A stretch of DNA of 64,000 bases, from contig NZ_MASU01000017.1 in assembly GCF_003202235.1 (NCBI RefSeq), forward strand, positions 1-64,000, read 5' to 3'. Made by a program: the position numbers and the translations under genes. This DNA comes from Prauserella flavalba. GTDB taxonomy: Bacteria > Actinomycetota > Actinomycetes > Mycobacteriales > Pseudonocardiaceae. Below are positions 7,178 through 59,975 of this stretch, one piece after another (the stretch's first letter is position 1; every line of letters begins with the position of its first letter). The notes below the pieces were generated by a model. That model saw nothing but the letters and a program-made list of their open reading frames with translations. It was not told the DNA's origin and made no database searches.

Positions 7178-8226
7178 GCCAGCCACGCCAGCATGCTGCC
7201 CCGCGACCAGCAGCGGCCCACGGCCTCGGCGCGCAGGGCCGACTGGTCGAACAGGGCGAGACCGATGATGCTGTGGCCCGACGCGTGGCGATCGCCGAAC
7301 GTCGGTATCGACGGTGCGACACCGACGCCCTCCGCCGACACCCACGCCACCGCGCGGCCGGTCGCCGCTTCGTCGAGTCGGTGCAGGAACCGCAGGCGGC
7401 TCTGGAGCGACAAGCTCGACAGCGCCCACGTTGTGGTGACGACCGGCAGTGCGTCCGAGGGGACCTTGGCGAACGCCTCTGGCAGCACCTCCACGGCGTC
7501 ACCGCGCAGCAGCAGCGGAGGCGCCGACGCCGCCAGCTCCAGCTCCGCTTCGAGCCGCGCCGCCCGCTCCCGCTGATCCGGTGCCAGACAGGCACGCAGC
7601 CACCGGGCGTCGTCGGCGTCGGTCACGTCGAGCGGATCGACGTCCACGCCGACGCGGGCGACGACCTCGGGCAGCGGCAGCGCCGGAACGCGCCGGCCAC
7701 CGACGATCGAGCACGGCACCCGCACGGCCGACGACGGGTCGCCGAGCGACTGTCCGTTGCCATAGCTGATGTCGACGCGATCGACGTCGAGGTTGAACCC
7801 GGCCGAACAGCCCACGTCGATCAGCCCGACCGCGTTCGCACCCGCCCTGCGCGCCGCCTCGGCGATGGCCGGATACAGCACGGCGTGGTGTCCGGTCTCG
7901 TCGGCCCGCGCCCGCCGTCGCGTGGCGATGTCCACCACCGAGCCGATCCCGTGCAGCAGCGCGCCGATCGCCGCACCGGCGGCGGCGTCACCGTCCCCGG
8001 CGGCGTAGGCCGCGGCGAGCTCCGGCGCCTGGCCCGAGAGGACGAGGTGGTGCAACGCGGCGAGGATCAGCGTGGGGTGCCGTCTGCGCGCGGGCACCGT
8101 CTCGATGGCGCGCAGTGCCTCGGGCGACTCGCTCAGCGCGACGGCGACACGCTCGTACAGCGGCGAGATCCTGCGTGCGTCCACCTCGCCGAAGCGCCGG
8201 TACGTCTGAGCGAGTCCGCCTGCCAT
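7174..8226 (-). CDS. DUF2332 family protein
   Basis: A 350-residue cytoplasmic protein with the layout of actinobacterial DUF2332: helical N terminus, then a Rossmann-like GLIDVGCSAGFNLDVDRV segment (about 145-165) that resembles the SAM-binding loop of methyltransferases. The family has no firm function. VTTTWALSS and the C-terminal VSAEGVGVAPSIP stretches are also typical. It overlaps the convergent membrane hydrolase gene by 4 bases. Downstream of its start lies the damaged methyltransferase gene on the same strand, 45 bases away. Confidence 0.75.
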   Translation of the reverse strand: MAGGLAQTYRRFGEVDARRISPLYERVAVALSESPEALRAIETVPARRRHPTLILAALHHLVLSGQAPELAAAYAAGDGDAAAGAAIGALLHGIGSVVDIATRRRARADETGHHAVLYPAIAEAARRAGANAVGLIDVGCSAGFNLDVDRVDISYGNGQSLGDPSSAVRVPCSIVGGRRVPALPLPEVVARVGVDVDPLDVTDADDARWLRACLAPDQRERAARLEAELELAASAPPLLLRGDAVEVLPEAFAKVPSDALPVVTTTWALSSLSLQSRLRFLHRLDEAATGRAVAWVSAEGVGVAPSIPTFGDRHASGHSIIGLALFDQSALRAEAVGRCWSRGSMLAWLA

Positions 8227-8271
8227 TCCGGTGATCCTATTCGGGATCGCCGTACGCGTTCGCGGATCGGC

Positions 8272-8854
8272 CTACCGCGGTACCTCGAGGACGAAGAACA
8301 GGAAGCACGGCTTGGTCGCAAGGTCACGGAACGCGTCGGGGAACAGTTCCCGGGCGTCCGGGTCGGGCAACGGCTCGCTGATGACGGAAAGGCGGAAGCC
8401 GGCCGTGGCGAAGGCATCGGTCATCGCGTGCAACGGCCTGCGCCAGAACCTCATCGGGACGGTCTGCCCGCCGAACGCCCAGTCGAAGGCATAGCTGCTG
8501 GTCGCGAAGTAGTCGGGCCGGGGCTCCCGGATCGAACGCACCGTCGTCGAAGGGCAGGCGGTCGTTCAGGTCGGCCACTTGCAGGGCCACCTCGTCACCC
8601 AGCGTTCGCCTGGCCAGCTCCAGCATCCCGGCGCTCGCGTCGATGCCGGTGACGACCGCGCCGCGGTCGCGCAGCGCCGCGGACAGGGGACCTGCGCCAC
8701 AGCCGGCGTCCAGGATCCGGCGGCCCGCCACGTCTCCGGCGAGGGCCAGGATCGCGGGCCGCTCGTAGTACGCGTTCACCAGGCTGTCGCCGGTCTCGGC
8801 CGAGTACGCCTCGGCGAAAGTGTCGTAGTCGTTGACCCGGGCTTCGCGTGTCAT
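8272..8854 (-). pseudogene. SAM-dependent methyltransferase with internal deletion and frameshift
   Basis: The N-terminal half reads in one frame (8854 down to about 8535): ILDAGCGAGPLSAALRDRG, the class I SAM-binding motif, followed by VTGIDAS and LPFDDGAFD. The C-terminal half reads in another frame (about 8541 down to 8272): REPRPDYFATSSYAFDW through FLFFVLEVPR. In relatives these two parts are separated by roughly 50-60 residues holding the catalytic-side strands and the LKPGG region. The junction at the gcgttcgatc sequence joins them out of frame, so one deletion removed the middle. The product should be inactive. The IS481 element sits 25 bases upstream of its start. Confidence 0.75.
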
Positions 8855-8879
8855 CCTCGCAATCTAGTGGTCACCTAGG

Positions 8880-9974
8880 TGTCGTGACCTGACACGTTGT
8901 TGTCAGGCGGCGAGCCTGCTGATGGGTGGTCGGCCGCCGAGGGCGGAGTGGCCGCGTTGAGTGTTGTAGTGGTGGAGGAATCGGTCAAGGCCGCGACGGC
9001 GGGACGTGTTGCTGGTCCAGGGTCGGGCGTAGGCCCATTCGTTGAGCAGGGTGCGGTTGAAGCGTTCGGCTTTGCCGTTGGTCCAGGGGCAGCCGGGTTT
9101 GGTGAAGCGGCGTTTGATGCTCCAGGCCGTGCAGACCCAGCCCCAGTCGGTGCCGCGCCGGTAGACCAGGGCGTTGTCGGTCAGGACGCGGCGCACGCGG
9201 ATGTTGTGGGCGGCGAACCAGGCCAGCGCGCGGTGCAGGAAGGCCGCACAGGTGTGGTCTTTCTCGTCGGCGAGGACCTCGCTGTAGGCCAGGCGGGTGT
9301 GGTCATCGATCGCGGTGTGGACGTAGTCGTAGCCGATCTTGGTCTTCTTGTGGCGGTTCGCGACCGATACCTTCGCCTCGCGCCCGTGCAGTCGCCACCC
9401 GCCACCGGCCGGGATCCGGCCCAGTTTCTTCACGTCCACGTGGATCATTGACCCGGGTGTGCGGTGTTCATAGCGGTGGGGGCTGCACCGCGAACCGCGT
9501 ACCGGCTCGCCGGTAATCGGGTCGATCGCGGCCAGGTGCGGCACGGCGTGGCGGGCCAGGATCCGTCCGACCGTCGACGGGTTGAGACCGAGCTCGGAGG
9601 CGAGCGCGACCGCGCCGCGACGGCGGCGTCGCCGCGCGGCCAACACCCGCTGCTCGACCCATTTCGGGGTGCGAGTGGGCATCCGCCGCGGCCGCGACGA
9701 ACGATCACCCAACGCGGCGTCGCCACCCTCGGCGTAACGGCGCACCCACTTGTACACCGTCGCGCGCGACACCCCCAGCTGCTCGGCCACGTGCGCGGCC
9801 GGCCACCCGGCAGCGACACGCTCAACGATCAGGCGACGAGCGAACACATTGGTACGGGCATTAGCGTGAGCCATCGAGGACCTCCTGCGGGTGAATGCCA
9901 GACACATCCACTCCGCCAGGAGGTCCTCCCACGTTCAAGCAGGCGCGCCGTCAACAACCTCCCGGGTCACGACA
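8880..9974 (-). mobile_element. IS481-family insertion sequence with CCTAGG target duplication
   Basis: A 1095-bp element. The outer ends are perfect inverted copies: tgtcgtgacc at 8880-8889 and ggtcacgaca at 9965-9974. The six-base palindrome cctagg flanks it on both sides (8874-8879 and 9975-9980); IS481 members are known to favour CTAG targets. The transposase fills most of it. The empty site can be rebuilt by removing one cctagg: the phosphotransferase stop codon (inside cctagg) would then lie about 20 bases before the methyltransferase ATG, so the insertion split a two-gene operon. Confidence 0.9.
8903..9874 (-). CDS. IS481-family DDE transposase
   Basis: This 323-residue transposase has an N-terminal helix-turn-helix (AAHVAEQLGVSRATVYKWVRRY). 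The rve core follows: the first Asp in MIHVDVKKLGRIP, the second in RRVLTDNALVY, and the Glu in KAERFNRTLLNEW. It ends with the ALGGRPPISR signature of IS481 proteins. The ATG at 9874 follows aggagg at good spacing; a frame extending to 9907 is less likely. The gene is uninterrupted and lies within matching inverted repeats, so the element may still be mobile. Confidence 0.93.
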   Translation of the reverse strand: MAHANARTNVFARRLIVERVAAGWPAAHVAEQLGVSRATVYKWVRRYAEGGDAALGDRSSRPRRMPTRTPKWVEQRVLAARRRRRRGAVALASELGLNPSTVGRILARHAVPHLAAIDPITGEPVRGSRCSPHRYEHRTPGSMIHVDVKKLGRIPAGGGWRLHGREAKVSVANRHKKTKIGYDYVHTAIDDHTRLAYSEVLADEKDHTCAAFLHRALAWFAAHNIRVRRVLTDNALVYRRGTDWGWVCTAWSIKRRFTKPGCPWTNGKAERFNRTLLNEWAYARPWTSNTSRRRGLDRFLHHYNTQRGHSALGGRPPISRLAA

Positions 9975-9975
9975 C

Positions 9976-10896
9976 CTAGGCGTTCGCCCGGCGCAGGCGT
10001 TCGGCGGCCTGTGCGCGAACGGCGTCACCGCACACCGGCGGGTCGCCGTGCAGGGCCTCCCAGCGGGCGTTGTGCACGGCGGGCCACAGGCTCGCCGCCC
10101 ACGCGATCTCCCGTTCCTCCAAGGTGAACCGGCGGCCCCGGAGATCCTGGTACGCCGCGAGGAACGCGGCGGAGCTCTCGACCGGCGCCAGCGTCGGCGG
10201 CGAGGCGCTCGCGAACGCTCCGCTCGCCGCACCCGCGAGTGCCGCTTCCGGTTGCCACGCCAGGCTGTCCCAATCGTGCACCGCCCACACCTCGCCGTCG
10301 CGCCAGCGGAGGTTCTGCGCCTCGAGGTCGGCGTGCCCGAGCACGCGCGGCAGGCCGGCCGCCAGCAACCGCCTGCGCGCCCGTCCGGCCGTGCCGACGA
10401 CGAACCCGGGCACCGCGTTCTGGTCCCGTTCGTCGAGGAACCCGATCGCAGGCCACAGGCCGGGGCCGGTGTGGTCCCACCGAGCCCACCGCGGATTCGG
10501 CAACGGCGGCGCGACGGTGACGTCGGCCAGCTCGGCCATCAGCGACGCGAACACCGCCGCGTACCGCGCGGCGACGTCCGGCGAGTCGCCGCGCAGCAGC
10601 TCGCCACCCTGCCGGAACTCCTCGGCGTGCACGGCGAGCCCCTCGACCCCGGTCACGGGCGTGAGCGGCCGCGCGCACGGAAACCCGCGCTCGGCCAGCG
10701 CGGCCTGCGCGGCGACACACGACGAGGCCCTGCCGTCGTTCTCCCTGGCCTTCACCACGACAGCGCGTCCGCAGGCCAATCGCAGCCCGAACACGGCGGA
10801 GCTGCTCCGCACCGCGAACAGCACGCCGACCGGCTCGTGGCCGAGCTTGCAGGCGCACCAGCCCGGCAGCCACTCGGGGAGCTCCTCCAGTGTCAC
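9976..10896 (-). CDS. Aminoglycoside-phosphotransferase-fold kinase
   Basis: This protein has 306 residues of the APH/choline-kinase fold. VLGHADLEAQNLRW (about 180-193) supplies the catalytic Asp and Asn, and AVHDWDSLAWQ the metal-binding DWD motif. The N-terminal lobe has VVVKARE with the ATP-contacting Lys. The family phosphorylates aminoglycosides, macrolides, choline, sugars and other small molecules, and the substrate here cannot be told. It starts 61 bases after the siderophore decarboxylase gene on the same strand, so it may be the tail of that operon. Its TAG stop lies in the cctagg target of the IS481 element. Confidence 0.75.
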   Translation of the reverse strand: MTLEELPEWLPGWCACKLGHEPVGVLFAVRSSSAVFGLRLACGRAVVVKARENDGRASSCVAAQAALAERGFPCARPLTPVTGVEGLAVHAEEFRQGGELLRGDSPDVAARYAAVFASLMAELADVTVAPPLPNPRWARWDHTGPGLWPAIGFLDERDQNAVPGFVVGTAGRARRRLLAAGLPRVLGHADLEAQNLRWRDGEVWAVHDWDSLAWQPEAALAGAASGAFASASPPTLAPVESSAAFLAAYQDLRGRRFTLEEREIAWAASLWPAVHNARWEALHGDPPVCGDAVRAQAAERLRRANA

Positions 10897-10957
10897 GGTG
10901 CCGACTGTGCCACGCCGGGCGTTCCGGTGCTCAGCACGCCGGGTCGCGGCCGCCGGC

Positions 10958-12106
10958 TCACCGGTACACGTGCTCGGGATGTGGGTGGCTGAGGAAGTCG
11001 TGATGCGAGATCTCCCAGCCGTAGGCGCCCGCGTGGCGGAACTCCAGCACGTCGCCCGCGCGCACCTCGTCCACCACCACGTCGCGGGCGAGCACGTCCT
11101 TCGGCGTGCACAGCTCGCCGACCACCGTCACCGGTTCGCCGCGCACGCCGGGCCTCGGCAGCGTCGCGGGCCACGCCTCGACGTGACGGACGCCGAACGG
11201 GTGGCTGTGCTGCCACGACACCGGTAGCCGGAAGTGATGGGTCCCGCCGCGCACCAGTACATAGTGGACACCGTGGTTGCGTTTGACGTCCAGCACCTCG
11301 GTCAGGTAGCTGCCGCACGCGGCGACGAGGAACCGCCCGCACTCGAAGTCGATCTCCCGCCAGTGCGCGGGGAAGGTGCCCACCAGCCTGGCCAGGCCGT
11401 CGGTGAACCGGGTCCAGTCGAACTGCGCCGTCAGGTCCGCGTAGTTCACGCCGATCCCGCCGCCGACGTTGACGACCTCGCAGCGCACCCCGAACGCCTC
11501 CTCCCAGCTCGTGATCTTTCGCCGGTAGAGGTCGAGCATCGCCAGATGCGCCTCGGGGGAGAGGTTGTTGGACAGCGAGTGCAGGTGGAACCCCGCGAAC
11601 GCGACGCCGGGCAGCTCGACGGCGGCCCGTACCGCTTCGGGTAGCCGTGCCTCGTCGATGCCGAACTGTGTGGGGCGGCCCGCCATCGCGAGCGTGGCCT
11701 TCGGGAACGGGCCCGCGAGGTTCACCCGCAGCAGTACCGCGGCCGTGCGCCCGAGCCGCGTCGCGGCCTCGGAGATCCGGTGCAGTTCCAGCACGCTCTC
11801 CACGTGCAGCCGCGTGACCCCGGCCGTGAGCGCCTGCTCGATCTCGCCCGGCGTCTTGGCGGGACCGCCGAAGAGCACCTCACCGTCCGGCGCCACGGCC
11901 CTCGCCTTGGCGAGCTCGCCGCCCGAGGCGACCTCGAATCCGGCGGCGAGCGGAGCGAGCGTGGCAAGGACCGGCTCCGCGCTGTTGGCCTTCATCGCGT
12001 AGAACATGCGGCAGCGCTCCGGCAGTGCGGCGACGACCTTGCCGACGTGCTCGGCGAGCGCGCCGAGGTCGTAGACGTACCGGCACACCGGCTCCGGCGC
12101 GGTCAT
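10958..12106 (-). CDS. sbnH: PLP-dependent decarboxylase, SbnH-like (siderophore biosynthesis)
   Basis: This 382-residue fold-type III PLP enzyme is related to diaminopimelate and ornithine decarboxylases. Lys39 in MFYAMKANSAEP is the expected Schiff-base lysine. FHLHSLSNNL, NVGGGIGVNY and the C-terminal GELCTPKDVLARD are conserved family blocks. The ATG at 12106 overlaps the TGA of the preceding NIS synthetase (ATGA). In the staphyloferrin B pathway SbnH decarboxylates the citryl-diaminopropionate intermediate to give the diaminoethane unit. Here the gene closes an operon with SbnA- and SbnB-like genes and three NIS synthetases, which favours that role over lysine biosynthesis (LysA). Confidence 0.82.
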   Translation of the reverse strand: MTAPEPVCRYVYDLGALAEHVGKVVAALPERCRMFYAMKANSAEPVLATLAPLAAGFEVASGGELAKARAVAPDGEVLFGGPAKTPGEIEQALTAGVTRLHVESVLELHRISEAATRLGRTAAVLLRVNLAGPFPKATLAMAGRPTQFGIDEARLPEAVRAAVELPGVAFAGFHLHSLSNNLSPEAHLAMLDLYRRKITSWEEAFGVRCEVVNVGGGIGVNYADLTAQFDWTRFTDGLARLVGTFPAHWREIDFECGRFLVAACGSYLTEVLDVKRNHGVHYVLVRGGTHHFRLPVSWQHSHPFGVRHVEAWPATLPRPGVRGEPVTVVGELCTPKDVLARDVVVDEVRAGDVLEFRHAGAYGWEISHHDFLSHPHPEHVYR

Positions 12107-13788
12107 GCGCGCGCCAGCGGGTTGGGCACGCGGTGCAGCCGCAGCTCCGTGTCCGGCAGCAGGCGGCGTGTCGTGAGCTTCTCGACGGTGACCTCGGGCT
12201 TGAACACGTCGAACAGCGGGTCGCCGAAACGCTCGTGGTGCTCGCGCACCACCTCGCCGATCGTCGCCCAGAAGTCGCGTTCGGACAGTCCGTAGGCGTC
12301 GGCGAGGAAGATCGCCAGCTCGCCGATGTTGACGAAGAAGAACGCGTCGAGCAGGAAGTCGGCGACGAGCTCGGGGTCGCCGGTCTCGACGAAGGAGTTG
12401 CGGTTCCGGTGGTACGGCGGCGTTCCGCGCAGCGGCGGGCACAGCGGAGGGTCGGCCAGGTGCTCGCGGGAGAACCGGATGCCGTCGTGGAAGTCGCGCA
12501 GCGCGACGCGCGTCGGCAGGCCGTCGCGATGCAGCAGCACCATGTTCTGCGCGTGCGATTCCAGCGCGATCCCGTGGCGGCACAGCAGATGCACGAGCGG
12601 CACCACGGCCGCCTCCGCGAGCCTGCGCACCCAGCACCGCAGGCCGTGCTCGCGCACCCAGGGGTCGAGAAAGGGTGTCCCGTCGCGTTCGCGGGCCGTG
12701 AGCGCGGTGAAGGGTGCCGCCTGCTCGCCGGGATCGAGGAATGGGTGCAGGCTCTCCCGCCAGATGCACGCGAGTGTGCCGTAGCCGTCCTCGCGCAGGA
12801 ACTCCGCGGCGGGCTCCGGGGTCACGGCCGTGCCCATCACCTCGCCGAGCAGCACGGTGCGCAGTTCCCCGCTCAGGAAGGGATCCGATTCGGCGATGCC
12901 CCGCAGCCAGTCGGAAACCAGCGGCGCGTTGTGCACGGTGTGCGGGGCGAGCACCCGGCTGGTGGAGGTGTTCACCAGCGACATCGCGAGCTTGAGGTAC
13001 GGCCTTCTCGGATCATTCACACAGGACAGTGTGCGGATCGACTGCTGGGGAAGGAACTCATGCGGGTCGCCGCCGAGTACCACCAGCTCGCCCGAGCGCA
13101 GCTGTCCGGAGAACGCCCTCGCGACCTGCTCGCGCCATTGCCACGGGTGCACGGGCACAAGCGTGTATTCCGGCGCCGGTGCCGTGACGGCCTTGCCGAG
13201 CTGGCCGCGCAGGAAGGCGTGTTCCTCGATCGTCGCCGACGTGGTCACCTCGGTGATCTCGCGCCGCGCCGCGAGCCACAGTGGACGGAACGGGCGGGCG
13301 AACTCGGGGCCGTAGGCGAGGTTGTCGGCGACACCGAAACCGATACGGGACTTGTACGCCGGATGGTAGCGGTGCCCGTCGGTGACGCCGGCCTCCAGCG
13401 TGTCGAAACCGGACCCGGAGAGCGAGCCCTCGCGGCAGTACTGGGCCAGTGCGTCGTTGAGCAGCGTGTGTTCCAGCTCGCGGGCGAACCGGGCCAGGCA
13501 CGCGGGATCGGCGTCGAGGCGGTCGGCGATCTCGCCGAGGAACCGGGTCACCGACTCCGGCTCCTCGGCGTCGCGCAGGACCTCGTCCACCGTCACGCGG
13601 TCGAAGGTGAACCGCCGCCGCGCCGTGAACGTGTAGGCGACCCCGGCGGCGCCGGCGATCGTGCTGTCGTCCTTGGTACGCACGGCCCCCTCGTAGAGCA
13701 GGGACTCCAGCAGCTGCCGCAGCAGCCTGCGCAGCACCGGCCGCATCGTCGGAGCCGTGAGCGCGCGCTGGACGAGGTCGTGGGTCAT
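12103..13788 (-). CDS. NIS siderophore synthetase (IucA/IucC family), third in operon
   Basis: A 561-residue NRPS-independent siderophore synthetase, which joins a carboxylate (citrate or a citryl intermediate) to an amine through an acyl-adenylate. Visible family features: GHRYHPAYKSRIGF (about 138-151), VPVHPWQW, PQQSIRTLS, KLAMSLVNTSTSRVL, and ESHAQNMVLLHRDG followed by RDFHDG in the C-terminal lobe; it ends with the PNPL motif. FhuF-like C-terminal region present. It starts at the ATGA overlapping the previous synthetase and ends overlapping the decarboxylase, so translation is coupled. The substrate class (A, B or C) needs a tree and is not assigned. Confidence 0.88.
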   Translation of the reverse strand: MTHDLVQRALTAPTMRPVLRRLLRQLLESLLYEGAVRTKDDSTIAGAAGVAYTFTARRRFTFDRVTVDEVLRDAEEPESVTRFLGEIADRLDADPACLARFARELEHTLLNDALAQYCREGSLSGSGFDTLEAGVTDGHRYHPAYKSRIGFGVADNLAYGPEFARPFRPLWLAARREITEVTTSATIEEHAFLRGQLGKAVTAPAPEYTLVPVHPWQWREQVARAFSGQLRSGELVVLGGDPHEFLPQQSIRTLSCVNDPRRPYLKLAMSLVNTSTSRVLAPHTVHNAPLVSDWLRGIAESDPFLSGELRTVLLGEVMGTAVTPEPAAEFLREDGYGTLACIWRESLHPFLDPGEQAAPFTALTARERDGTPFLDPWVREHGLRCWVRRLAEAAVVPLVHLLCRHGIALESHAQNMVLLHRDGLPTRVALRDFHDGIRFSREHLADPPLCPPLRGTPPYHRNRNSFVETGDPELVADFLLDAFFFVNIGELAIFLADAYGLSERDFWATIGEVVREHHERFGDPLFDVFKPEVTVEKLTTRRLLPDTELRLHRVPNPLARA

Positions 13789-15401
13789 GGCAGCTCCCGC
13801 AGCGGGTTGGGGACGTCGACGTAGTACGGCCGTTCACCGCGGCCGGTGAAGCGGCTGAGCAGGTTGGCCTTGGCGGGCAGTGTGCGGCAGGCGAGCAGTT
13901 CCCCGGCCTCCGGCCTGCCCGCGAGGTGCTCGCGCGCGACCTGCCACAGGCGCTCCTCCCCGGCGCCGGTGTGCAGGCCGAGCACGTGCACCACGTGGCC
14001 GAGCTGGTTGGTCACGGCGTGGTAGCGCAGCCGCAGCCACGCCTCGGCCTCGTCGTAGAGCACCGGGCTGCCGGGCGTGACGAGCTCGAGCCGGGCCCTC
14101 GTGCGGCTCGCCGACACGCCCTCCAGATCGCGCACCCAGAAGCCCGCCGGCCAACCGTCCTCAAGACACAGCAGGGAGTTCTGCACGTGGGCCTCGAAGC
14201 TCACGCCGTCGGAGGCGAACACCGACAGCAGCGGCAGCAGCGACACGTCGAGGTAGCGGCGCAACCACTCCTCGGCGGGGCCCCCGAGTCGCGGCGGATC
14301 CTCCAGCAGTCCGGCGAGCACCTGGGGCGCCTGCCCGTTGCGGGCGAACGGGTTCTGCCGGAACAGCACGGCGAGGTCCGCGGCCAGCTCGTCGCTCACC
14401 ACGCGCGGGTCGAGCGTGCGGTAGCCGCTCTCCAGCACCACGCCGAACCCGGCCCGTGCGGGCAGGCGTGCGGCGAGCAGGCTCGCGTCGGCCGCCCTGC
14501 GCAGGTGCTCGAGCGGGTTGTTGCGGACGAAGTTGGTGATGCGGACGTGCAAGGGCAGCTTCCACGACACCGGGAACTCCGGGTCGCACACGGTGCGCAC
14601 CGACGAGGTCGGGTAGACCGGCCTGCCGAGGGGGCCCAGCGGCACGAGCCCGCCCTGGTCGACCAGCGCTGCGAACTCCGGCAGCCCACGCAGGTGCCCG
14701 GACTGCCACGGATGCACCGGCAGCGCCTCGTACCCCGGCGGGACGTGGGCGGCGACCTGGGCGGGCACCCAGTCGCCTGGCGCCACGCGCACGTCCACCA
14801 CCAGCTCCCTCGCCACGGCGAGGTAGTGCGGCACGAACTCCGCACCCAGCTCCGGCGCGTACCGGCCGAGGTCGGCGTCGGTGAAGCCCTCGGCGCTCTT
14901 CGGCGTCGGATGGAACGGGTGACCGAGCAGGACGTTCTGTTCGGCGTGGCGGGTCAGCGCATGCGCGCCGCCGCCCGGCTCGCGTCTGCCGCGGTCGAGG
15001 TAGCGGGCCGTGCGGCCGACGCTGTTGCCGATCTGCGCGGCCAGCTCGGCCGCACCCGCGTGCCCCGTGGTGGCCTCCAGCTCGGCCAGCAGAGCCGCGA
15101 CGAACCCGGCATGTCCCGGCGTGGTGTGCTCGGCGTAGCGGTGGTGTCCGCACGGCGAGCGGTGCAGCACCTCGGTGCGCAGCGTCCGGCCCGTCGCGGG
15201 CAGCCGCACCGACAGCTCGCCGGGTGCGACGTCGTGGACGCCGGTTTCCCGCAGGTAGGCGTTGAGCAGCCGGGTCCGCGCGGCGTGCTCGGCGGCTACG
15301 ACAGCAGCGGGTTCGGCACCCTTCCCGTGTTCGCCGGCATGCTCACCCCCGCCGACGGGCCCTGGCGGAGCAGCGGCCGCAGCACCTGCCGGTGCGGCCA
15401 C
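13785..15401 (-). CDS. NIS siderophore synthetase (IucA/IucC family), second in operon
   Basis: About 538 residues from a GTG at 15401. This start would overlap the previous gene by about 106 bases. No ATG or GTG lies closer to the conserved beginning (AARTRLLNAYLRETG), so the true start is uncertain. Family blocks: GHPFHPTPKSAEGF, LPVHPWQSGHL, TSSVRTVCDPE, KLPLHVRITNFVRNNP, FEAHVQNSLLCLEDGWP and RDLEG. The C-terminal lobe ends in VPNPL. It should catalyse one amide-forming step with citrate or a citryl intermediate. It overlaps the next synthetase by ATGA at 13785-13788. Confidence 0.83.
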   Translation of the reverse strand: MAAPAGAAAAAPPGPVGGGEHAGEHGKGAEPAAVVAAEHAARTRLLNAYLRETGVHDVAPGELSVRLPATGRTLRTEVLHRSPCGHHRYAEHTTPGHAGFVAALLAELEATTGHAGAAELAAQIGNSVGRTARYLDRGRREPGGGAHALTRHAEQNVLLGHPFHPTPKSAEGFTDADLGRYAPELGAEFVPHYLAVARELVVDVRVAPGDWVPAQVAAHVPPGYEALPVHPWQSGHLRGLPEFAALVDQGGLVPLGPLGRPVYPTSSVRTVCDPEFPVSWKLPLHVRITNFVRNNPLEHLRRAADASLLAARLPARAGFGVVLESGYRTLDPRVVSDELAADLAVLFRQNPFARNGQAPQVLAGLLEDPPRLGGPAEEWLRRYLDVSLLPLLSVFASDGVSFEAHVQNSLLCLEDGWPAGFWVRDLEGVSASRTRARLELVTPGSPVLYDEAEAWLRLRYHAVTNQLGHVVHVLGLHTGAGEERLWQVAREHLAGRPEAGELLACRTLPAKANLLSRFTGRGERPYYVDVPNPLRELP

Positions 15402-16861
15402 GTCGGCGAGTGCAGGAGCAGCCGCTCCACCTCCGGGGGTGGGTTCGTCCGGTCGAGGCTGGTGGCCAGTGCCGCGCGGAGCCGTTTCCACAGGAGCTTC
15501 TCCGTGATGCCGTAGTGCCGGGACAGTGCGTCGGCGATGCCGTAGAGGTTGACCTGCAGGCCCAGCGTCTGCAAGTAGCCGACGAGCGCCTCCGGTTCGT
15601 CGAGCACGAGCGACTGCCGCGCGCCCGGCTTGACGCGGTAGCCCGGCTCCTCCACCCCGGCCGCGCGCATCCACTGTGGATGGACGCGCAGCGTGTCGTG
15701 GTCGCGGAGCACGAACCGGGCGGGCCACCCGTCTTCCAGTGTCACGGCGACGTTCTGGCCGTGCAGCTCGGGCAGCACGCCGTAGCGGAGAAAGCCCAGC
15801 GCCACGGCGCAGAACGCCTCCGCGATGGCCGTGAAGAACGGCACCGGATCGCACTCCCAGCCGCTCGCGTAGAGAGCCGGGGCGGCGAACGCGCCCATAG
15901 GCACGGCGTCGGTGACGTCGGCCGGGTAGGTGCGCACCTGCGCGGCGAGGTGGCCGGGCCGGTCGGCGAACTCGTCGTCACCGGCCCAGCCGCACCAGGT
16001 GCGCTCGTCACACACGGTCACCAGCGCCGCGAGGTCCGGGTCGCACGCGAGGATCGTGCGCAGGGTGCGTTCCGCGCGCTCGCCGTTGTCGAGGTAGCGC
16101 GGCGGCAGCAGCCGGGCCGCGCCGAGCGTGGCGATGCCCAGCGGCAGCTTCACGTGCCTGGCTCGCTCTGCGGTAACGAGGGTGCGCAGCGACGACGTCG
16201 GCCGGAACCCGCCGAGCCCGCGTGCGACCGGACGGATGTCGCCGCGGGCCAGCTCGGCGGCGAACTCCCTCGGCAGCACGTGCTCGAACTGCCAGGGGTG
16301 CACCGGCAGCAGGTGGAACCCCTCGGGCGGTTCCGGCGCGGCCTCGCCAAGGAGCAGGTCGGCGAGGTCCCTGTCGCCGGAGCCGAACCGGAGGCGGTCG
16401 GCGCGCACGGCGACCCAGTCGAGCGGGAGCGGTTCGCTGCGTGCGGTGCCGTAGCGGGCGAGGTCGCTCGCCGACCAGCCCGCGGCGGCGCGCGCGGTGG
16501 GGTGGAACGGGCGGTTGCGGCTCGCCGCGAACCGTTCCCCGGCGAGCATCCCGAGCGGGCCGTCGATGACGCCGTGGTGCGGCGTCGCCGTCACCTCGCC
16601 GTGTTCGACGGCCGTGCGCAGGTCGCGGGCGACCTGCTCGGCGAAGGGCTCGCCGTGGGCGACGATGCTGATCAGCTCGCCGGGCGTGACCTCGGCGGAG
16701 CCGTGCAGCACCGGCCCGCCCGCGTAACGCACGGGCTGCAGCGCGCCGCCGTCCCGAACCCGCACGCGCAGCTCGCCGACCCGGTACCACTCACCGTCGA
16801 GCACCCCCTCGCCGAACCCGCCGACCCCCTCGCGCACGAGCGCGTCGACCAGGTCCCCCAT
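15296..16861 (-). CDS. NIS siderophore synthetase (IucA/IucC family), first in operon
   Basis: About 521 residues from the ATG at 16861 (a GTG at 16864 is equally possible). A longer reading from 16960 would translate the palindromic repeat and overlap sbnB, so it was not chosen. Family blocks: PVHPWQFEHVLP, TSSLRTLVTAERARHVKLPLGIATLG, ELHGQNVAVTLEDGWP and RDHDTLRVHP, with a C-terminal PNPLLS. The usual GHxxHPxxKxR block is altered to NRPFHPTARAAAGW, lacking the Gly-His pair and the Lys, which may mark a different substrate or citrate-binding mode. The gene lies 80 bases after sbnB, with the palindrome between them. Confidence 0.82.
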   Translation of the reverse strand: MGDLVDALVREGVGGFGEGVLDGEWYRVGELRVRVRDGGALQPVRYAGGPVLHGSAEVTPGELISIVAHGEPFAEQVARDLRTAVEHGEVTATPHHGVIDGPLGMLAGERFAASRNRPFHPTARAAAGWSASDLARYGTARSEPLPLDWVAVRADRLRFGSGDRDLADLLLGEAAPEPPEGFHLLPVHPWQFEHVLPREFAAELARGDIRPVARGLGGFRPTSSLRTLVTAERARHVKLPLGIATLGAARLLPPRYLDNGERAERTLRTILACDPDLAALVTVCDERTWCGWAGDDEFADRPGHLAAQVRTYPADVTDAVPMGAFAAPALYASGWECDPVPFFTAIAEAFCAVALGFLRYGVLPELHGQNVAVTLEDGWPARFVLRDHDTLRVHPQWMRAAGVEEPGYRVKPGARQSLVLDEPEALVGYLQTLGLQVNLYGIADALSRHYGITEKLLWKRLRAALATSLDRTNPPPEVERLLLHSPTWPHRQVLRPLLRQGPSAGVSMPANTGRVPNPLLS

Positions 16862-16877
16862 CACCTGCTCGAGTAGT

Positions 16878-16928
16878 CCCCCAAGGCCACCTTTGTTGCG
16901 TTCAACGCAACAAAGGTGGCCTTGGGGG
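16878..16928. repeat. Perfect 23-bp-arm palindrome inside the siderophore operon
   Basis: The arms at 16878-16900 and 16906-16928 are exact inverse complements and the loop is ttcaa. The core aaggccacc...ggtggcctt and the ttcaa loop are shared with three other palindromes in this window (32642-32750, 56986-57040, 59921-59975), but the outer arm sequence differs. It lies between sbnB and the first synthetase gene, where the mRNA would fold into a very stable hairpin that could limit read-through or act as a processing or stability element. Confidence 0.9.
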
Positions 16929-16941
16929 CTGTCGGGGTCGC

Positions 16942-17943
16942 TCAGTAGAGGGGCAGGCATGTGCCGATGTCCTGGGATTCGGCGCGACGGTAGACCTCGG
17001 CCGCGCACGCGATGTCCTCCACCGCCATCCCCATCGGGTTCAGCAGGATGATCTCGTCGTCCGTCTCGCGGCCGGGCCGGGCGCCGCCGATGATCTCGCC
17101 CAGCTCCGCGTGCAGCCGCTCCCGGGAGAACGAGCCCTCCAGCACCAGCTGGTTGATGATCTTCTTCTCCCGGTTGCTCTGCTCCCAGTCGTCCACGACC
17201 ACCTTGTCGGCGCCGAGGAAGACGTCCTTGTGCACGTCCATGATGGACACGTTCGCGAGGAACGTGCCTGGCTTGAGCCACGAGAACGCGATGTATGGCT
17301 GGTCGGTGACGGTGCACGGCACCACGACGTCACCCGCACGCACGGCGTCCTCCGCGCTCGCCGCCACCCGCACCGACGCGCGCTCGCCCACGCACTCGGC
17401 CAGCGCGCGGGCGGCGTCCTCGCGCACGTCGTAGGCGTGAATCGTGGTGAGGGAGGGAAACTGCTGCAGCAGCGCGGTCACCTGCGTGGTGCCGATGACG
17501 CCGCAGCCGATCAGCGACACGTCCGTGAAGCCCGGCCGCGCCAGGTGCCGCGCCGCCAGGCACGTCACCGCCGCCGTGCGCCACGCGCTGATCAGCCCGC
17601 CCTCGAGAATCGCCACCGGATAGTTGGTCGCCGGGTCATTGAGCACGATCACCGCGCTCGCCCGCTCGAGCCCCGACTCCGGGTTGTCGTGCTTGCTGCC
17701 GATCCACTTGAGACCGGACATGCCCGCCTCGCCCGAGGCGCCGACGTGTGCGGGCATCGCGATGATCCGGTCGGCGATGTGGCCCTTGCCGACGCGCAGG
17801 TACGGCTTGAGCGGCTGCACCGTCCGGCCCTGCGCGTGCGCGACGAGCGCCGAACCCAGCGCGTCGACGTACAGGTCGGAGTGGTCGCCACCGACGGCGG
17901 CGACGTCGCCGCGCGTGAGGTAGCGGATGCGGGGTTCGGACAT
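16942..17943 (-). CDS. sbnB: SbnB-like N-(amino-carboxyethyl)-glutamate dehydrogenase
   Basis: This 333-residue protein belongs to the ornithine cyclodeaminase/mu-crystallin family. It has a Rossmann NAD site at VSLIGCGVIGTTQVTALL and the substrate block RIIAMPAHVG, SGLKWIGS and EGGLISAWRTAAVT. In staphyloferrin B synthesis SbnB oxidatively cleaves the SbnA product to L-2,3-diaminopropionate and 2-oxoglutarate. The ATG at 17943 follows gaggag and lies 11 bases after the sbnA-like stop. Adjacency to an OPS-type cysteine-synthase homologue and NIS synthetases is what separates this call from ordinary ornithine cyclodeaminase. Confidence 0.87.
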   Translation of the reverse strand: MSEPRIRYLTRGDVAAVGGDHSDLYVDALGSALVAHAQGRTVQPLKPYLRVGKGHIADRIIAMPAHVGASGEAGMSGLKWIGSKHDNPESGLERASAVIVLNDPATNYPVAILEGGLISAWRTAAVTCLAARHLARPGFTDVSLIGCGVIGTTQVTALLQQFPSLTTIHAYDVREDAARALAECVGERASVRVAASAEDAVRAGDVVVPCTVTDQPYIAFSWLKPGTFLANVSIMDVHKDVFLGADKVVVDDWEQSNREKKIINQLVLEGSFSRERLHAELGEIIGGARPGRETDDEIILLNPMGMAVEDIACAAEVYRRAESQDIGTCLPLY

Positions 17944-17954
17944 GTGGGTGCTCC

Positions 17955-18944
17955 TCAGTCGTTGTCGCGGCGGGATTCGGCTGCGGCCAGCCATTCGTCG
18001 TCGTAGACGAGGTCGAGATAACGGTCCCCTCGGTCGGGGAAGATCGCCACCACCCGGCACGGCCTCGGCAGCGACGGCAGCGTGCGGCGGATCGCGGCGA
18101 CGACGGAGCCCGTGGAGCCGCCCGCGAAGATCCCCTCCGTGGCGAGCAGTTCCCGGCAGCCGTGCGCGGCGTCCACGTCGTCGATGTGCACCACCTGGTC
18201 GATTTCCCCGGGGCTGCACAGCTCGGGCACGCGGCTGGAGCCGATGCCGGGGATCTCCCGGCGGCCGGGAGCGCCGCCGAAGATCACCGAGCCGACGGCG
18301 TCGACCGCCACCACCCGCAGACCGGGGAAGCGCTCGCGGAGCCTGCGCGAGCAGCCGAGGATGCTGCCGGTGGTGCTCACCGCGGCGAAGAGGTAGTCGG
18401 GAGGGCGTACCAGCTGCTCGGCCAGTTCGGCGCCGGTGCCGTGGTAGAACGCCTGCCAGTTGCGGTCGTTGGCGTACTGGTTGACCCACACGGCGTCGGG
18501 GGCGCGCGCGAGGAGCTCCCGCACCCGGCGGAGGCGGCTCTGCAGGTAACCACCTGCGTCGTCCACCTCGGACACCAGCTCGACGTCGGCGCCGAGCCGG
18601 TGCAGCAGCGCGAGGTTGGCCGTGGTGGTCTTCGGGTCCACGACGCAGGTGAACCGCAGGCCGTGCACCCTGGCTGCCACGGCGAGGGCGATCCCGAAGT
18701 TGCCGGAGCTGCTTTCGATGAGCCTGGTGCCCGCCCGGATCGAGCCGTCCCGCAGCCCGCTCTCCACGATGTAGCGCGCCGAGCGGTCCTTCATGCTGCC
18801 GCTCGGGTTCAGCAGCTCCAGCTTGGCGACCACCTCGGCGCCGGGCTCGGGGAAGAGGCGGCGCAGGGCGACGACGGGGGTGTTGCCGACACAGTCGAAG
18901 ACGGATTCGCCGACGGACTCGGCCACGGACGAAGCGGCGGTCAC
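17955..18944 (-). CDS. sbnA: SbnA-like N-(amino-carboxyethyl)-glutamate synthase
   Basis: This 329-residue fold-type II PLP enzyme is a cysteine synthase relative. Lys52 in NPSGSMKDRSA is the cofactor lysine, IESSSGNFGIAL binds the substrate carboxylate and GGSTGSV holds the PLP phosphate. SbnA condenses O-phospho-L-serine with glutamate as the first step to diaminopropionate. The GTG at 18944 has gaggag 4 bases upstream. It is the first gene of the operon, 32 bases from a DtxR-type iron box. A plain cysteine synthase is the alternative, disfavoured by the SbnB and NIS neighbours. Confidence 0.87.
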   Translation of the reverse strand: MTAASSVAESVGESVFDCVGNTPVVALRRLFPEPGAEVVAKLELLNPSGSMKDRSARYIVESGLRDGSIRAGTRLIESSSGNFGIALAVAARVHGLRFTCVVDPKTTTANLALLHRLGADVELVSEVDDAGGYLQSRLRRVRELLARAPDAVWVNQYANDRNWQAFYHGTGAELAEQLVRPPDYLFAAVSTTGSILGCSRRLRERFPGLRVVAVDAVGSVIFGGAPGRREIPGIGSSRVPELCSPGEIDQVVHIDDVDAAHGCRELLATEGIFAGGSTGSVVAAIRRTLPSLPRPCRVVAIFPDRGDRYLDLVYDDEWLAAAESRRDND

Positions 18945-18976
18945 TGAACTCCTCGGCTCGGCAGGTCGAACGCCTG

Positions 18977-18995
18977 TAAGGCAAGTCTTACCTTA
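18977..18995. promoter_or_regulatory. Iron box (DtxR/IdeR/DmdR-type operator)
   Basis: TAAGGCAAGTCTTACCTTA is a 19-bp interrupted palindrome: TAAGGCAAG against TAAGGTAAG on the other strand, with 8 of 9 positions matching around a central T. It fits the actinobacterial iron-box pattern (TTAGGTTAGGCTAACCTAA) and sits just upstream of the siderophore operon. The family repressor with bound Fe2+ should shut the operon off in iron-replete cells. The site is also downstream of the AGADG-protein gene, but that gene is transcribed away from its own promoter at the far end. Confidence 0.87.
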
Positions 18996-19104
18996 CCGAC
19001 GCGGTCACTGTCGATGAGGGTACCGACACCCGCCGTCACTGGACAGGGTGGTGCCCCGGGGCGCGGGCTACCCGGGGCACCACCAGATCGGCGTGGACCT
19101 GCGG

Positions 19105-19539
19105 TCAGCCGCCGGTCGAGGCCGCTACGTCCTCGTCCTCGTCGTCATCGCCCGCGAGCCAGTCGTCGTCGTACACGTCGGAGGGCTCGGCCTCCGCGTC
19201 GTCCGCGTCGTCCGTGCTCGCCCACGTGCTGCTCGACGACGCGCCATCGGCGCCGGCCGCCGCGCTCTCGGTGTAGTACGCGGCGTCGTCGCCGTCCGCA
19301 CCGGCGTAGGTCAGGTCGGAGGCAGCGCCGTCGGCGCCGGCGTACTGGCTCTGGGTGACGTACGAGACGCCCTGTTCCTCGCTGCCCGATCCGGCTGCCA
19401 CCTGCTCGGTCGCGACACCGTCGGGGCCGACCACGGTCGTCTCCGAGCCGTACTCGTCGGCGGAGGCCAAGCCGGCTGCACCGAACGCGAGGGGGAACGC
19501 CAGGGCAGTGGCGACCATGGTCCGTCGAACCGTGCGCAT
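19105..19539 (-). CDS. Small acidic secreted protein with AGADG repeats
   Basis: I do not recognise this 144-residue protein. The first 27 or so residues form a signal peptide (basic MRTVRRT, hydrophobic core, cleavage near GLASA-DE). The mature part has no Cys and several AGADG or VGPDG units spaced about 14-18 residues apart, and ends in an Asp/Glu-rich tail (about residues 115-140). The ATG at 19539 follows gaaagga. An acidic, low-complexity secreted protein could bind cations or sit at the cell surface, but that is a guess. It is preceded by an unusually structured leader. Confidence 0.72.
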   Translation of the reverse strand: MRTVRRTMVATALAFPLAFGAAGLASADEYGSETTVVGPDGVATEQVAAGSGSEEQGVSYVTQSQYAGADGAASDLTYAGADGDDAAYYTESAAAGADGASSSSTWASTDDADDAEAEPSDVYDDDWLAGDDDEDEDVAASTGG

Positions 19540-19544
19540 GAGAT

Positions 19545-19671
19545 GATCCTTTCTCTGTGTTCGCACAGGGATGGGACCTGGTCTTCATCGCTTTGCCTGG
19601 CACCGAAGGCCAGGTCCCGTTTTCCTTCCGCGAGACTCGCCGGAGCCTCGGATCTCTTGCTACCCGGCGTC
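19545..19671 (-). promoter_or_regulatory. Structured 5' leader of the AGADG-repeat protein gene
   Basis: Read on the minus strand, the region before the ATG at 19539 holds three hairpins. One has stem gacgccgg with ccggcgagtc (19664-19671 with 19634-19643). One has a 9-bp stem, gggacctgg with ccaggtccc (19573-19581 with 19610-19618), whose 3' arm can instead pair with an internal cctgg at 19596-19600. A small 5-bp stem with a 4-base loop (19555-19568) lies right before the ribosome site. The stretch 19567-19846 (280 bases) has no gene. It does not match a riboswitch class I know. Confidence 0.45.
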
Positions 19672-19846
19672 TCCGTTCGCTAACCGCCAGTTCCCGCCGG
19701 TGTCCACTGTGTTGGTGACCCCACGCAGGCAGGCGAGCGGACCCCTCGGCGGCGAGTGGTGCCACGGCCTCGGAGAGGCCCGTTTTCACGCGTGTCGGGC
19801 GATACCACCCGATCAGTGAGCGGGCGCGTGGCCGGAGAGCGGGTCC

Positions 19847-21130
19847 TCAGGGCTCGCGGCGGTCGATCACCCGGCGCATCTTGCCAACCGAGCGCTCCAG
19901 TGTGCCGGGATCCACCACGGCGACGTCGACGCTCACGCCGACGTTGTCCTTGACCAGCGCCACGATCTCGTCCGCGGCGGCCTTCCTGCGCTCGGCCGGC
20001 GCTTCGGGCTCGGCCTCGACGTGCACGGTCATGTGGTCGAGACGGTCGCGTTTGGACAGCACGAGCTGGAAGTGCGGGGAGAGACCCTCGACACGCAGCA
20101 CGACCTCCTCGAGCTGCGTCGGGAACACGTTCACTCCGCGCAGGATGATCATGTCGTCGGAGCGACCGGTGACCTTCTCCATCCGCCGGTGCGCGGGCCG
20201 CGCGGTACCGGGCAGCAGCCGGGTGAGGTCCCGCGTGCGGTACCGGATGATCGGCAGGGCCTCCTTGGTGAGCGACGTGAAAGTCAGCTCGCCGAGCTCG
20301 CCGTCGGGCAGCACGGTGTCCTCGAGCGGATCCACGACCTCCGGCAGGAAGTGGTCCTCCCAGACGTGCAGCCCGTCCTTGGTCTCCACGCACTCCTGCG
20401 CGACACCGGGGCCCATCACCTCGGAGAGGCCGTAGATGTCCACGGCGTCGATGTTCATGCGGCTCTCGAGCTCGGCCCGCATCCGCTCGGTCCACGGCTC
20501 GGCGCCGAGAATGCCCACCCGCAGCGCCGTCGAGGCCGGGTCGATGCCCTGCCGCTCGAACTCGTCCAGCAGTGTGAGCAGGTACGACGGCGTCACCATG
20601 ATCACGCGCGGCTCGAAGTCGGCGATGATCCGCACCTGCCGTGCCGTCATGCCGCCCGACGCGGGAACCACCGTGCAGCCCAGCTTCTCGGCGCCGTAGT
20701 GGGCACCGAGGCCGCCGGTGAACAGGCCGTAGCCGTAGGCCACGTGCACGGTGTCGCCGGGCCGCCCGCCCGCCGCGCGGATCGAGCGCGCCATGAGTGT
20801 CGCCCAGTTGTCGAGGTCGGTCTCGGTGTAGCCGACCACGGTGGGCTGGCCCGTGGTGCCGCTGGAGGCGTGGATGCGGCGCACCTGCGACTTCGGGACG
20901 GCGAACAGGCCGAACGGATAGTGGTCGCGCAGGTCGGCCTTGGTGGTGAAAGGGAACTTCGCGAGGTCGGCGAGCTCGCGGCAGTCGTCGGGATGGACGC
21001 CGGTCTCGTCGAACCTGCGGCGGTAGAACGGCACGTTGTCGTAGGCGTGCCGCAGCGTCCACTGCAGACGCTGCAGCTGGAGGTCGCGGAGCTCGTCGAC
21101 GCCGAGCCGCTCTGCGGGGTCCTGTGTCAT
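19847..21130 (-). CDS. paaK: Phenylacetate-CoA ligase
   Basis: This 427-residue member of the ANL superfamily makes phenylacetyl-CoA from phenylacetate, ATP and CoA, the entry step of aerobic phenylacetate breakdown. It shows the phosphate-binding HASSGTTGQPTVVGYT loop (about 92-107), VDIYGLSEVMGPG (A5), YRTRDLTRLLPG and GRSDDMIILRGVNVFPTQ (A8), typical of PaaK. The ATG at 21130 overlaps the thioesterase stop (ATGA), so the two are co-translated. The rest of the paa epoxidase genes are not adjacent. Confidence 0.92.
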   Translation of the reverse strand: MTQDPAERLGVDELRDLQLQRLQWTLRHAYDNVPFYRRRFDETGVHPDDCRELADLAKFPFTTKADLRDHYPFGLFAVPKSQVRRIHASSGTTGQPTVVGYTETDLDNWATLMARSIRAAGGRPGDTVHVAYGYGLFTGGLGAHYGAEKLGCTVVPASGGMTARQVRIIADFEPRVIMVTPSYLLTLLDEFERQGIDPASTALRVGILGAEPWTERMRAELESRMNIDAVDIYGLSEVMGPGVAQECVETKDGLHVWEDHFLPEVVDPLEDTVLPDGELGELTFTSLTKEALPIIRYRTRDLTRLLPGTARPAHRRMEKVTGRSDDMIILRGVNVFPTQLEEVVLRVEGLSPHFQLVLSKRDRLDHMTVHVEAEPEAPAERRKAAADEIVALVKDNVGVSVDVAVVDPGTLERSVGKMRRVIDRREP

Positions 21131-56985: not shown

Positions 56986-57040
56986 CGCAGTGAAGGCCAC
57001 CTTCACTGCGTTCAAAGCAGTGAAGGTGGCCTTCACTGCG
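56986..57040. repeat. AAGGCCACC-family palindrome
   Basis: Arms at 56986-57010 and 57016-57040 match at 24 of 25 positions around the loop ttcaa. Each arm is itself a small palindrome (agtgaagg...ccttcact). It lies between the OmpA-domain gene start and the IS21 element. 56930-57105 has no gene. Confidence 0.88.
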
Positions 57041-59920: not shown

Positions 59921-59975
59921 CGCAGTGAAGGCCACCATGCCTGCGTTCAACGCAGGCATGGTGGCCTTCACCGCG
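59921..59975. repeat. AAGGCCACC-family palindrome
   Basis: Arms at 59921-59945 and 59951-59975 pair at 24 of 25 positions around ttcaa. The inner arm reads catgcctgcg where the copy at 56986 has cttcactgcg, and the other arm changes to match, so pairing is kept while sequence is not. Confidence 0.9.

Follow-up and report, generated by a model that had tools for sequence, protein, structure and literature searches.

A probable staphyloferrin B (sbn-type) biosynthesis operon behind a predicted IdeR-type iron box in Prauserella flavalba

Genes and features of the locus

In the window, a stretch of 64,000 nucleotides of Prauserella flavalba DNA, six genes lie on the minus strand from 18944 to 10958 and encode SbnA, SbnB, three NIS synthetases (NIS-C, NIS-E and NIS-F) and SbnH. 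Their order is that of Staphylococcus sbnABC(D)EF(G)H, minus the missing D and G. The features of the locus are:

18977..18995, minus strand: predicted IdeR/DmdR-type iron box with the sequence TAAGGTAAGACTTGCCTTA, located 32 bp upstream of the sbnA start codon (pattern search of the own genome)
17955..18944, minus strand: sbnA-like gene, predicted O-phosphoserine-dependent ACEGA synthase, 329 aa, GTG start (TIGR03945)
16942..17943, minus strand: sbnB-like gene, predicted ACEGA dehydrogenase (yielding L-2,3-diaminopropionate and 2-oxoglutarate), 333 aa, ATG start (TIGR03944)
16880..16926, no strand assigned: 47-bp palindrome between sbnB and NIS-C (52 copies of the pattern in the genome)
15296..16861, minus strand: SbnC-clade NIS synthetase, type B (2-oxoglutarate), 521 aa, with 16864 and ATG 16960 as alternative possible starts (PF04183 and PF06276, tree)
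13785..15302, minus strand: SbnE-clade NIS synthetase, type A (citrate), 505 aa as judged from homology; GTG 15401 a possible start (PF04183 and PF06276, tree)
12103..13788, minus strand: SbnF-clade NIS synthetase, type C, 561 aa, ATG start (NF033586, 504 bits, below the cut-off of 900; tree)
10958..12106, minus strand: sbnH-like gene, predicted PLP decarboxylase of citryl-diaminopropionate, 382 aa, ATG start (PF02784)
9976..10896, minus strand: APH-fold phosphotransferase (weak PF01636 match, 1e-7)
8903..9907, minus strand: IS481-family transposase at the downstream border of the locus (NF033577, 310 bits, cut-off 224)

The positions and the single strand of the six genes agree with the initial annotation. 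Its description of them as mostly overlapping holds from C to H (the NIS-F/NIS-E and sbnH/NIS-F overlaps are 4 bp each) but not from A to C, where there are gaps: sbnB starts (17943) 11 bp past the end of sbnA (17955), and a NIS-C start at 16861 or 16864 leaves 77-80 bp after sbnB, with the palindrome within the gap. If NIS-C started at ATG 16960 instead, the palindrome would be translated. Homology of NIS-E begins at about 15300, and the nearest upstream in-frame GTG is at 15401. All six frames are open and show 88-96% identity to those of Prauserella endophytica, the closest named organism to the source of the operon. A simple gene finder based on codon bias overlooked the SbnC-type gene and placed the coding strand opposite to it; this call was overruled by homology. 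An Rfam scan of 8000-20500 gave no match.

At the downstream border, sequence reading places CTAG at each end of the IS481 element, which lies at the stop codon of the phosphotransferase gene. By tblastn over the fetched loci, the phosphotransferase recurs in P. endophytica alone (85%), where another gene stands between it and sbnH. Because of this narrow recurrence, it is probably a bystander outside the pathway, and the earlier idea that it modifies the product is not borne out. As a serine kinase replacing SbnI it was rejected, given the same distribution, its separation from sbnH in P. endophytica, the lack of any SbnI match in 54 Actinomycetota loci and the presence of SerC.

Identity of the six enzymes

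Both of the first two enzymes exceeded the cut-offs of NCBI equivalog models, in line with their annotation as SbnA-like and SbnB-like: SbnA scored 423.6 bits against TIGR03945 (cut-off 349.95) and SbnB 385.9 bits against TIGR03944 (cut-off 326.9). Among solved structures, the best relative of SbnA is SbnA 5d84 (393 bits; next family 168) and that of SbnB is the SbnB structure 4m54 (422 bits; next 163). The SbnH-like decarboxylase was also correctly recognized, its best solved relative being 6knh (442 bits; next family 166), which we take to be SbnH. The staphylococcal enzymes are thus the nearest solved relatives of all three by more than twofold in bits. SbnA retains Lys52, Tyr157 and Ser190.

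The three synthetases account for all IucA/IucC matches in the entire assembly. In a tree of 107 rows (109 before L079_E1 and L085_E1, too little filled, were taken out), which included rows from 31 hand-picked loci of the 80 named, each of the three window proteins fell into a different group, SbnC, SbnE or SbnF. These groups also include Staphylococcus rows and achromobactin-type anchors; the 28 SbnE-position rows all fell to the same side of a branch that has support 100. Placement in unrelated NIS clades, which the initial annotation had named as evidence against its reading, was therefore not seen. The best solved relative of NIS-C is 7cbb (263 bits; next 55), deposited as an IucA/IucC family protein and presumably SbnC; those of NIS-E and NIS-F are AcsD (73 bits) and AsbB (420 bits). 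In all three proteins, the NIS motifs can be aligned with their Staphylococcus and Sodalis counterparts. Scores against the NCBIfam models for SbnC (NF033583, 331 of 700 bits) and SbnF (NF033586, 504 of 900 bits) remained below the cut-offs; we take these models to be tuned to staphylococcal proteins and so did not count the low scores against the pathway.

These comparisons established the gene content, gene order, orthology and synthetase clades of the operon, and the sbn-type core set proposed at the outset stands on the SbnA/SbnB equivalogs, the three synthetase clades, the SbnH family and the sbn gene order. With good confidence, we read the six genes as a staphyloferrin B biosynthesis operon, probably controlled by IdeR.

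The main competitor, which we consider unlikely, is a close but distinct citrate/2-oxoglutarate siderophore, for example one in which a synthetase accepts another amine or the product is decorated. The synthetases are just 36% (C), 38% (E) and 41% (F) identical to those of Staphylococcus pseudintermedius L153, so that acceptor specificity could have shifted, and achromobactin-type synthetases share the same three tree groups. However, conservation is higher for SbnA, SbnB and SbnH (49-59% to L153), and the six enzymes together are the staphyloferrin B set, whereas the Sodalis pSG1 cluster (L212), which we take to be of achromobactin type, uses a diaminobutyrate aminotransferase. The genes recurring between A-C, E, F and H at the 40 loci compared also speak against this competitor: except for a set peculiar to the genus Actinomycetospora, they are of the SbnD and SbnG types.

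Iron box, accessory genes and candidate uptake system

Employing what we take to be the IdeR/DmdR iron-box consensus, we found in the own genome a match without mismatch at sbnA and 16 places with at most one mismatch; the reversed control gave 0. The box sequence is conserved: in the nearest relatives (L074-L081), the same box precedes sbnA with 13-14 of the 14 fixed positions. This predicted IdeR-type box would probably place the operon under iron control.

As the initial annotation had stated, SbnG and SbnI are missing from the window. Over the whole genome there is no SbnG orthologue (best match 37% identity, compared with 53-88% to the same query for cluster SbnG copies of other actinobacteria) and no SbnD (exporter) orthologue (best 34% over a part). 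The closest relatives likewise lack SbnD and SbnG; other actinobacteria keep both in place. SbnI found no match in the window and 0 matches across 54 Actinomycetota loci, so such loci manage without it. SbnG and SbnI are described, in the available part of the source, as redundant with central metabolism (PMC12414870), and on this basis we treated both, together with the exporter, as not defining for an sbn cluster.

These losses could also mean a decaying cluster from which no siderophore is made any longer. The genome lacks D and G and the window lacks I, an insertion sequence stands at the border, and a repeated palindrome lies within the operon. The palindrome folds at -55.7 kcal/mol (z -9.3); P. 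endophytica and P. shujinwangii carry different variants of it at this site, and three further relatives looked at have none there. This stable palindrome, the alternative starts of NIS-C and NIS-E and the missing D, G and I were counted against the staphyloferrin B reading. Decay is nevertheless very improbable in view of the six open frames and their high identity to P. endophytica, the retained SbnA residues, the aligned NIS motifs and the conserved iron box.

On a 58-row tree (the window and 57 of the 80 named loci; a rule excluded rows lacking A, C, F or H, while L106, L127, L130, L132, L138, L144 and L145 were removed by hand for broken frames or rearranged or duplicated genes), SbnD and SbnG showed 4 changes each. 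Random pairings into four independent pairs gave on average 3.5 pairs with the same change, 0.5 with no difference and 0 with opposite changes; with a sign-test median p of 0.125, joint loss of SbnD and SbnG was not established as a statistical rule. We offer only tentatively an erosion series in Pseudonocardiaceae, from ABCDEFGH through ABCEFH (as in the window) to ACEFH without orthologous SbnB. The later forms might still function, with citrate, export and uptake supplied by unlinked genes, and those without SbnB might use another dehydrogenase or make a new siderophore containing the SbnA product.

A candidate importer lies elsewhere in the genome. Its binding-protein gene (C6:370274-371272) carries an iron box with at most one mismatch and is divergent from genes for two permeases and an ATPase, whose NCBIfam matches are all below the cut-offs. 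The binding protein is 74% and 69% identical to those encoded behind sbnH in Amycolatopsis marina and A. arida, respectively, and SirA ranks second among its solved relatives. In a survey of 297 genomes (50 with the cluster), binding proteins of at least 65% identity occurred in 37, of which 15 have the cluster (about 6 expected, kinship ignored). Co-occurrence is weak as proof of uptake, since the other 22 are without the cluster; the nearer cluster carriers G014, G044 and G077 have matches of just 47-49%. The link of this importer to the operon, resting on synteny in the two Amycolatopsis species, is suggestive only.

Taking the staphylococcal pathway as the basis for the order of reactions, we infer that SbnA would join O-phosphoserine and glutamate, and SbnB would oxidize the resulting compound to L-2,3-diaminopropionate and 2-oxoglutarate. 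The SbnE-type synthetase would couple citrate to diaminopropionate, SbnH would decarboxylate the conjugate to citryl-diaminoethane, the SbnF-type synthetase would attach another diaminopropionate, and 2-oxoglutarate would finally be added as a cap by the SbnC-type synthetase. An ordinary citrate synthase (469 bits) and SerC (645 bits), both encoded in the same genome, could provide citrate and O-phosphoserine in place of SbnG and SbnI. Export would fall to a predicted unlinked carrier, and uptake probably to the unlinked ABC importer with the iron box.

Distribution and comparison with known systems

All six homologues occur in the same order in many other genomes, so the arrangement is not due to chance. 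Clusters with sbnA but without sbnB exist too, for instance in Prauserella rugosa, and these relatives pose a sharp, testable biochemical question. The A-B-C-E-F-H order is retained across several phyla, is colinear with six Staphylococcus loci and, in the nearest relatives, stands behind the same iron box. It is hardly credible, then, that SbnA and SbnB feed diaminopropionate to another natural product with the NIS genes incidental: relatives of the two do serve other pathways, as CmnB and CmnK (presumably capreomycin synthesis proteins) illustrate, but these score 168 and 157 bits against 393 for SbnA and 422 for the SbnB structure.

The staphyloferrin B reading places a pathway known chiefly from research on staphylococcal infection firmly, by orthology, in an environmental actinobacterial lineage. 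SbnA, SbnH and the synthetases are largely retained in this lineage; the parts often absent are the exporter, the citrate synthase and the serine kinase. Confirmation of the product would provide a producer outside the staphylococci for studies of staphyloferrin B.

Staphyloferrin B was formerly called staphylobactin, and the Staphylococcus sbn operon is Fur-controlled. That operon shares with ours the A-B-C-E-F-H order, the three synthetase groups and the SbnA, SbnB and SbnH families; the window operon differs in lacking SbnD, SbnG, SbnI and a linked sirABC importer and in having an IdeR-type box instead of Fur control. The Sodalis cluster is alike in its three synthetase groups and type III PLP decarboxylase and has an SbnG-like aldolase family protein, but its diaminobutyrate aminotransferase (presumably acsF) replaces SbnA and SbnB and its gene order differs. 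A scan of the genes of our operon and of those next to it found no such aminotransferase.

The initial annotation was unsure whether the cluster had been described in actinobacteria; judging from the available parts of three papers, the type has been reported (PMC11162802, PMC8685341, PMC12187853). Staphylobactin-like clusters are described in Saccharopolyspora (PMC11162802, PMC12187853, available parts). Seven Saccharopolyspora loci (L089, L090, L094, L095, L100, L137 and L151) are homologous throughout to the window cluster and have SbnD and SbnG in place, whereas the window and its nearest relatives have neither; S. soli L088 is without B, D and G. For Amycolatopsis aidingensis, the available part of PMC8685341 describes a cluster 12% similar to that of staphylobactin and a siderophore-active strain, with no siderophore isolated; we liken that cluster to the window operon by its published description, not by sequence. 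The window operon thus adds a well-supported, though not startling, member to a cluster family already known in actinobacteria.

Identity and layout of the operon

At the start of contig 17 of the 8.09-Mb assembly, six minus-strand genes, with families assigned by profile, confirmed the six-gene sbn-like operon reported in the initial annotation.

18944 to 10958, minus strand: operon of SbnA-like, SbnB-like, three IucA/IucC (NIS) synthetase and SbnH-like decarboxylase genes (profile matches and sequence reading)
19105-19566: gene for a small acidic secreted protein, flanked by sbnA and an AMP-binding (paaK-like) gene
Upstream of the operon, beyond the small secreted acidic protein: the AMP-binding (paaK-like) gene, then a thioesterase gene
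16880-16926, 56993-57033 and 59928-59968: palindrome copies, with further copies genome-wide

sbnA and sbnB are 11 bp apart, sbnB and the first synthetase gene 77-80 bp (this does not hold if the synthetase starts at 16960), and the final two junctions are 4-bp overlaps. No IucA/IucC matches besides these three were found in the whole assembly.

The SbnA-like and SbnB-like proteins scored above the NCBI equivalog cut-offs. Closest solved structures were SbnA 5d84 for the former (393 bits; next family 168) and, for the latter, 4m54 (422 bits versus 163 for the next), which was deposited as a putative ornithine cyclodeaminase and which we take to be SbnB. The Lys, Tyr and Ser of SbnA, presumably its catalytic and specificity residues, are all kept. 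The decarboxylase was closest to 6knh, presumably SbnH (442 bits; next family 166), and the first synthetase to 7cbb, presumably SbnC (263 bits; next 55). For the second synthetase AcsD came nearest (73 bits), and for the third AsbB did (420 bits; next 196); we know of no solved structure of SbnE or SbnF.

A synthetase tree was built from the window, 31 hand-picked named loci of 80, together with anchor sequences of Sodalis and Thalassospira (taken to be achromobactin-type), Cupriavidus and Sinorhizobium plus three DesD-like rows (presumably DesD). In this quick build without bootstrap, which retained 107 of 109 rows, with two long-branched anchors and many rows of deviating composition, three deep groups were separated with support 99. 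The first synthetase of the window grouped with Staphylococcus SbnC-position rows and AcsA, the second with SbnE-position rows and AcsD, and the third with SbnF-position rows and AcsC, adjoining the DesD-like rows; the SbnE group corresponds to type A and the SbnF group to type C. SbnC is termed type B in the literature, including the title of a reference cited in PMC12414870. The three NIS synthetases thus fall one into each of the SbnC, SbnE and SbnF groups, in line with the proposed staphyloferrin-B-like set.

Gene order, distribution and reduced clusters

We retained 80 loci out of 118 relatives. Compared with references for each of the eight genes sbnA to sbnH, Staphylococcus, Nitrobacter, Methylobacter, most thermoactinomycete and Bacillus loci and many actinobacteria showed a colinear A-B-C-D-E-F-G-H order; some loci, e.g. 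several Paenibacillus, Archangium and Tumebacillus, were rearranged. In a 58-row tree, all eight genes occurred in 33 rows and ABC-EF-H in 12, the window among the latter. In other loci, the position vacant between C and E holds an MFS transporter gene; the gene absent between F and H is of the HpcH/HpaI type, with top solved relatives 4tv5 and 4tv6 (252 and 251 bits; next 117), both presumably SbnG. For SbnI, the query was taken from the gene following sbnH in three Staphylococcus loci; of the 80 loci, 15 gave a match (Archangium and 14 Bacillota), whereas none of the 54 Actinomycetota loci (some ending at contig edges) did, nor did the window. No SbnG or SbnD orthologue was found elsewhere in the genome; the reported lack of SbnG and SbnI in the window stood. 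Equivalogs, solved relatives, synthetase groups and gene order together support the staphyloferrin-B-like interpretation of the six genes.

SbnC-type proteins matched at >230 bits in 50 of 297 genomes of the family, the next genome reaching 103; the sbn operon, or at least an SbnC-type gene, is thus patchy yet widespread in Pseudonocardiaceae. Neighbourhoods were taken for 40 of these 50 genomes. The nearest named relative at the sbn locus is Prauserella endophytica (own-genome records were possibly outside the comparison), which also has a homologue of the small secreted acidic protein upstream of sbnA. Among the fetched loci, the phosphotransferase beside the operon is present only in P. endophytica. 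An IS481 element flanked by CTAG on both sides abuts the stop codon of the window's phosphotransferase gene exactly; a methyltransferase gene adjoining the element (8324-8854) apparently goes out of frame from about codon 110 onward.

Clusters lacking SbnB stand out among the remaining questions. In several actinobacterial loci A is directly followed by C, at 54-162 bp in the seven measured. Loci L085, L088, L093, L098, L099 and L106 have sbnA, three synthetases and sbnH without sbnB, sbnD or sbnG. SbnB at >35% identity was found nowhere in genomes G163 (L106), G115, G255, G067 and G056 (four of the other five loci), all inspected at the locus, or G148, judged by genome search alone; two of the six are 91% complete. 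SbnB was present at 78% in the control G132, and at 40% and 38% in G188 and G226, both Actinomycetospora. All 17 SbnA sequences compared from loci without SbnB retain the Lys and Tyr, and 16 of them the Ser (one gap). Beside the clusters of L107 and Streptomyces L108 (A-C type), and of L067 and L073, lies a distant SbnB relative (35-36%), a likely substitute dehydrogenase there. Actinomycetospora L110, L115, L117, L118, L122 and L123 are A-C-F-G-H, without B, D or an SbnE-type synthetase, and a different product is possible.

Iron boxes and palindromes

TAAGGTAAGACTTGCCTTA at 18977-18995, upstream of sbnA, matches without mismatch the pattern used for the box search, which we take to be the IdeR/DmdR consensus. 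The genome has 16 sites with at most one mismatch, versus 0 for the reversed pattern. The only other mismatch-free site (C17:149475-149493) is a perfect palindrome except at its centre and adjoins a gene reading like superoxide dismutase. Several others adjoin apparent binding-protein, permease, siderophore-interacting-protein and FTR1 genes, as judged by eye (PF01497 by profile). In L074-L081, the best site lies 26-67 bp upstream of the sbnA match and agrees at 13-14 of the 14 fixed positions. Best sites reached only 7-11 in six Staphylococcus loci, where no IdeR-type box is expected, 9-10 in nine Actinomycetospora loci, 12 in a tenth (L107) and 7 in Tsukamurella; some actinobacteria lack an IdeR-type box upstream of sbnA. 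In Haloechinothrix L105 and L109, an iron-box-like site (13/14) precedes an SbnC-type synthetase, and no other sbn genes were found within the fetched 10 kb on each side.

The palindromes, 41-47 bp and perfect or near-perfect, have GCGTTSAACGC at their centre, preceded by an 8-nt block and followed by the block that matches it, with AAGGCCACC and GGTGGCCTT as the outer ends. Of one variant pattern, this genome has 52 copies, P. endophytica 27 and G020 one, with none in the remaining 38 of 41 genomes searched. The inner blocks mostly covary between arms; copies with mismatched blocks look as if arms had been exchanged.

Candidate uptake system, supply and the proposed pathway

In Amycolatopsis arida and A. 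marina, a siderophore-binding protein gene lies directly behind sbnH. A protein encoded on another contig of the window's genome (C6:370274-371272) is 69% and 74% identical to these, respectively; the genome's remaining binding proteins reach at most 30%, where they match at all. An iron box accompanies the gene of this protein, and two permease genes and one ATPase gene, all of the iron-siderophore kind, run divergently from it. Among solved structures the protein is closest to YfiY (147 bits), followed by SirA (104 bits), the latter presumably the staphyloferrin B receptor. Since homologues also occur in many genomes without an sbn cluster, it may serve other ferric siderophores.

SerC and citrate synthase, both encoded in the genome, can replace SbnI and SbnG, which a passage of PMC12414870 describes as redundant with central metabolism. 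Clusters of this type have been reported before: staphylobactin-like clusters in Saccharopolyspora, for which part of the BGCFlow study argues early inheritance, with production unproven (PMC11162802); four Saccharopolyspora listed with a gene identity of 25% to staphylobactin, in a passage of PMC12187853; and 12% similarity to staphylobactin in Amycolatopsis aidingensis, in a passage of PMC8685341. Searching titles and abstract openings, with subscription journals largely outside the search, we found no publication on an sbn-type cluster in Prauserella.

In the model, SbnA would convert O-phosphoserine and glutamate to ACEGA, from which SbnB would release diaminopropionate and 2-oxoglutarate. 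SbnE would couple citrate with diaminopropionate, SbnH would decarboxylate the product, SbnF would add a second diaminopropionate and SbnC would add 2-oxoglutarate, the reaction order of staphylococcal staphyloferrin B synthesis. Part of this model was taken from a portion of PMC12414870. Every enzyme class of the staphylococcal pathway is present in this organism, where we infer each step.
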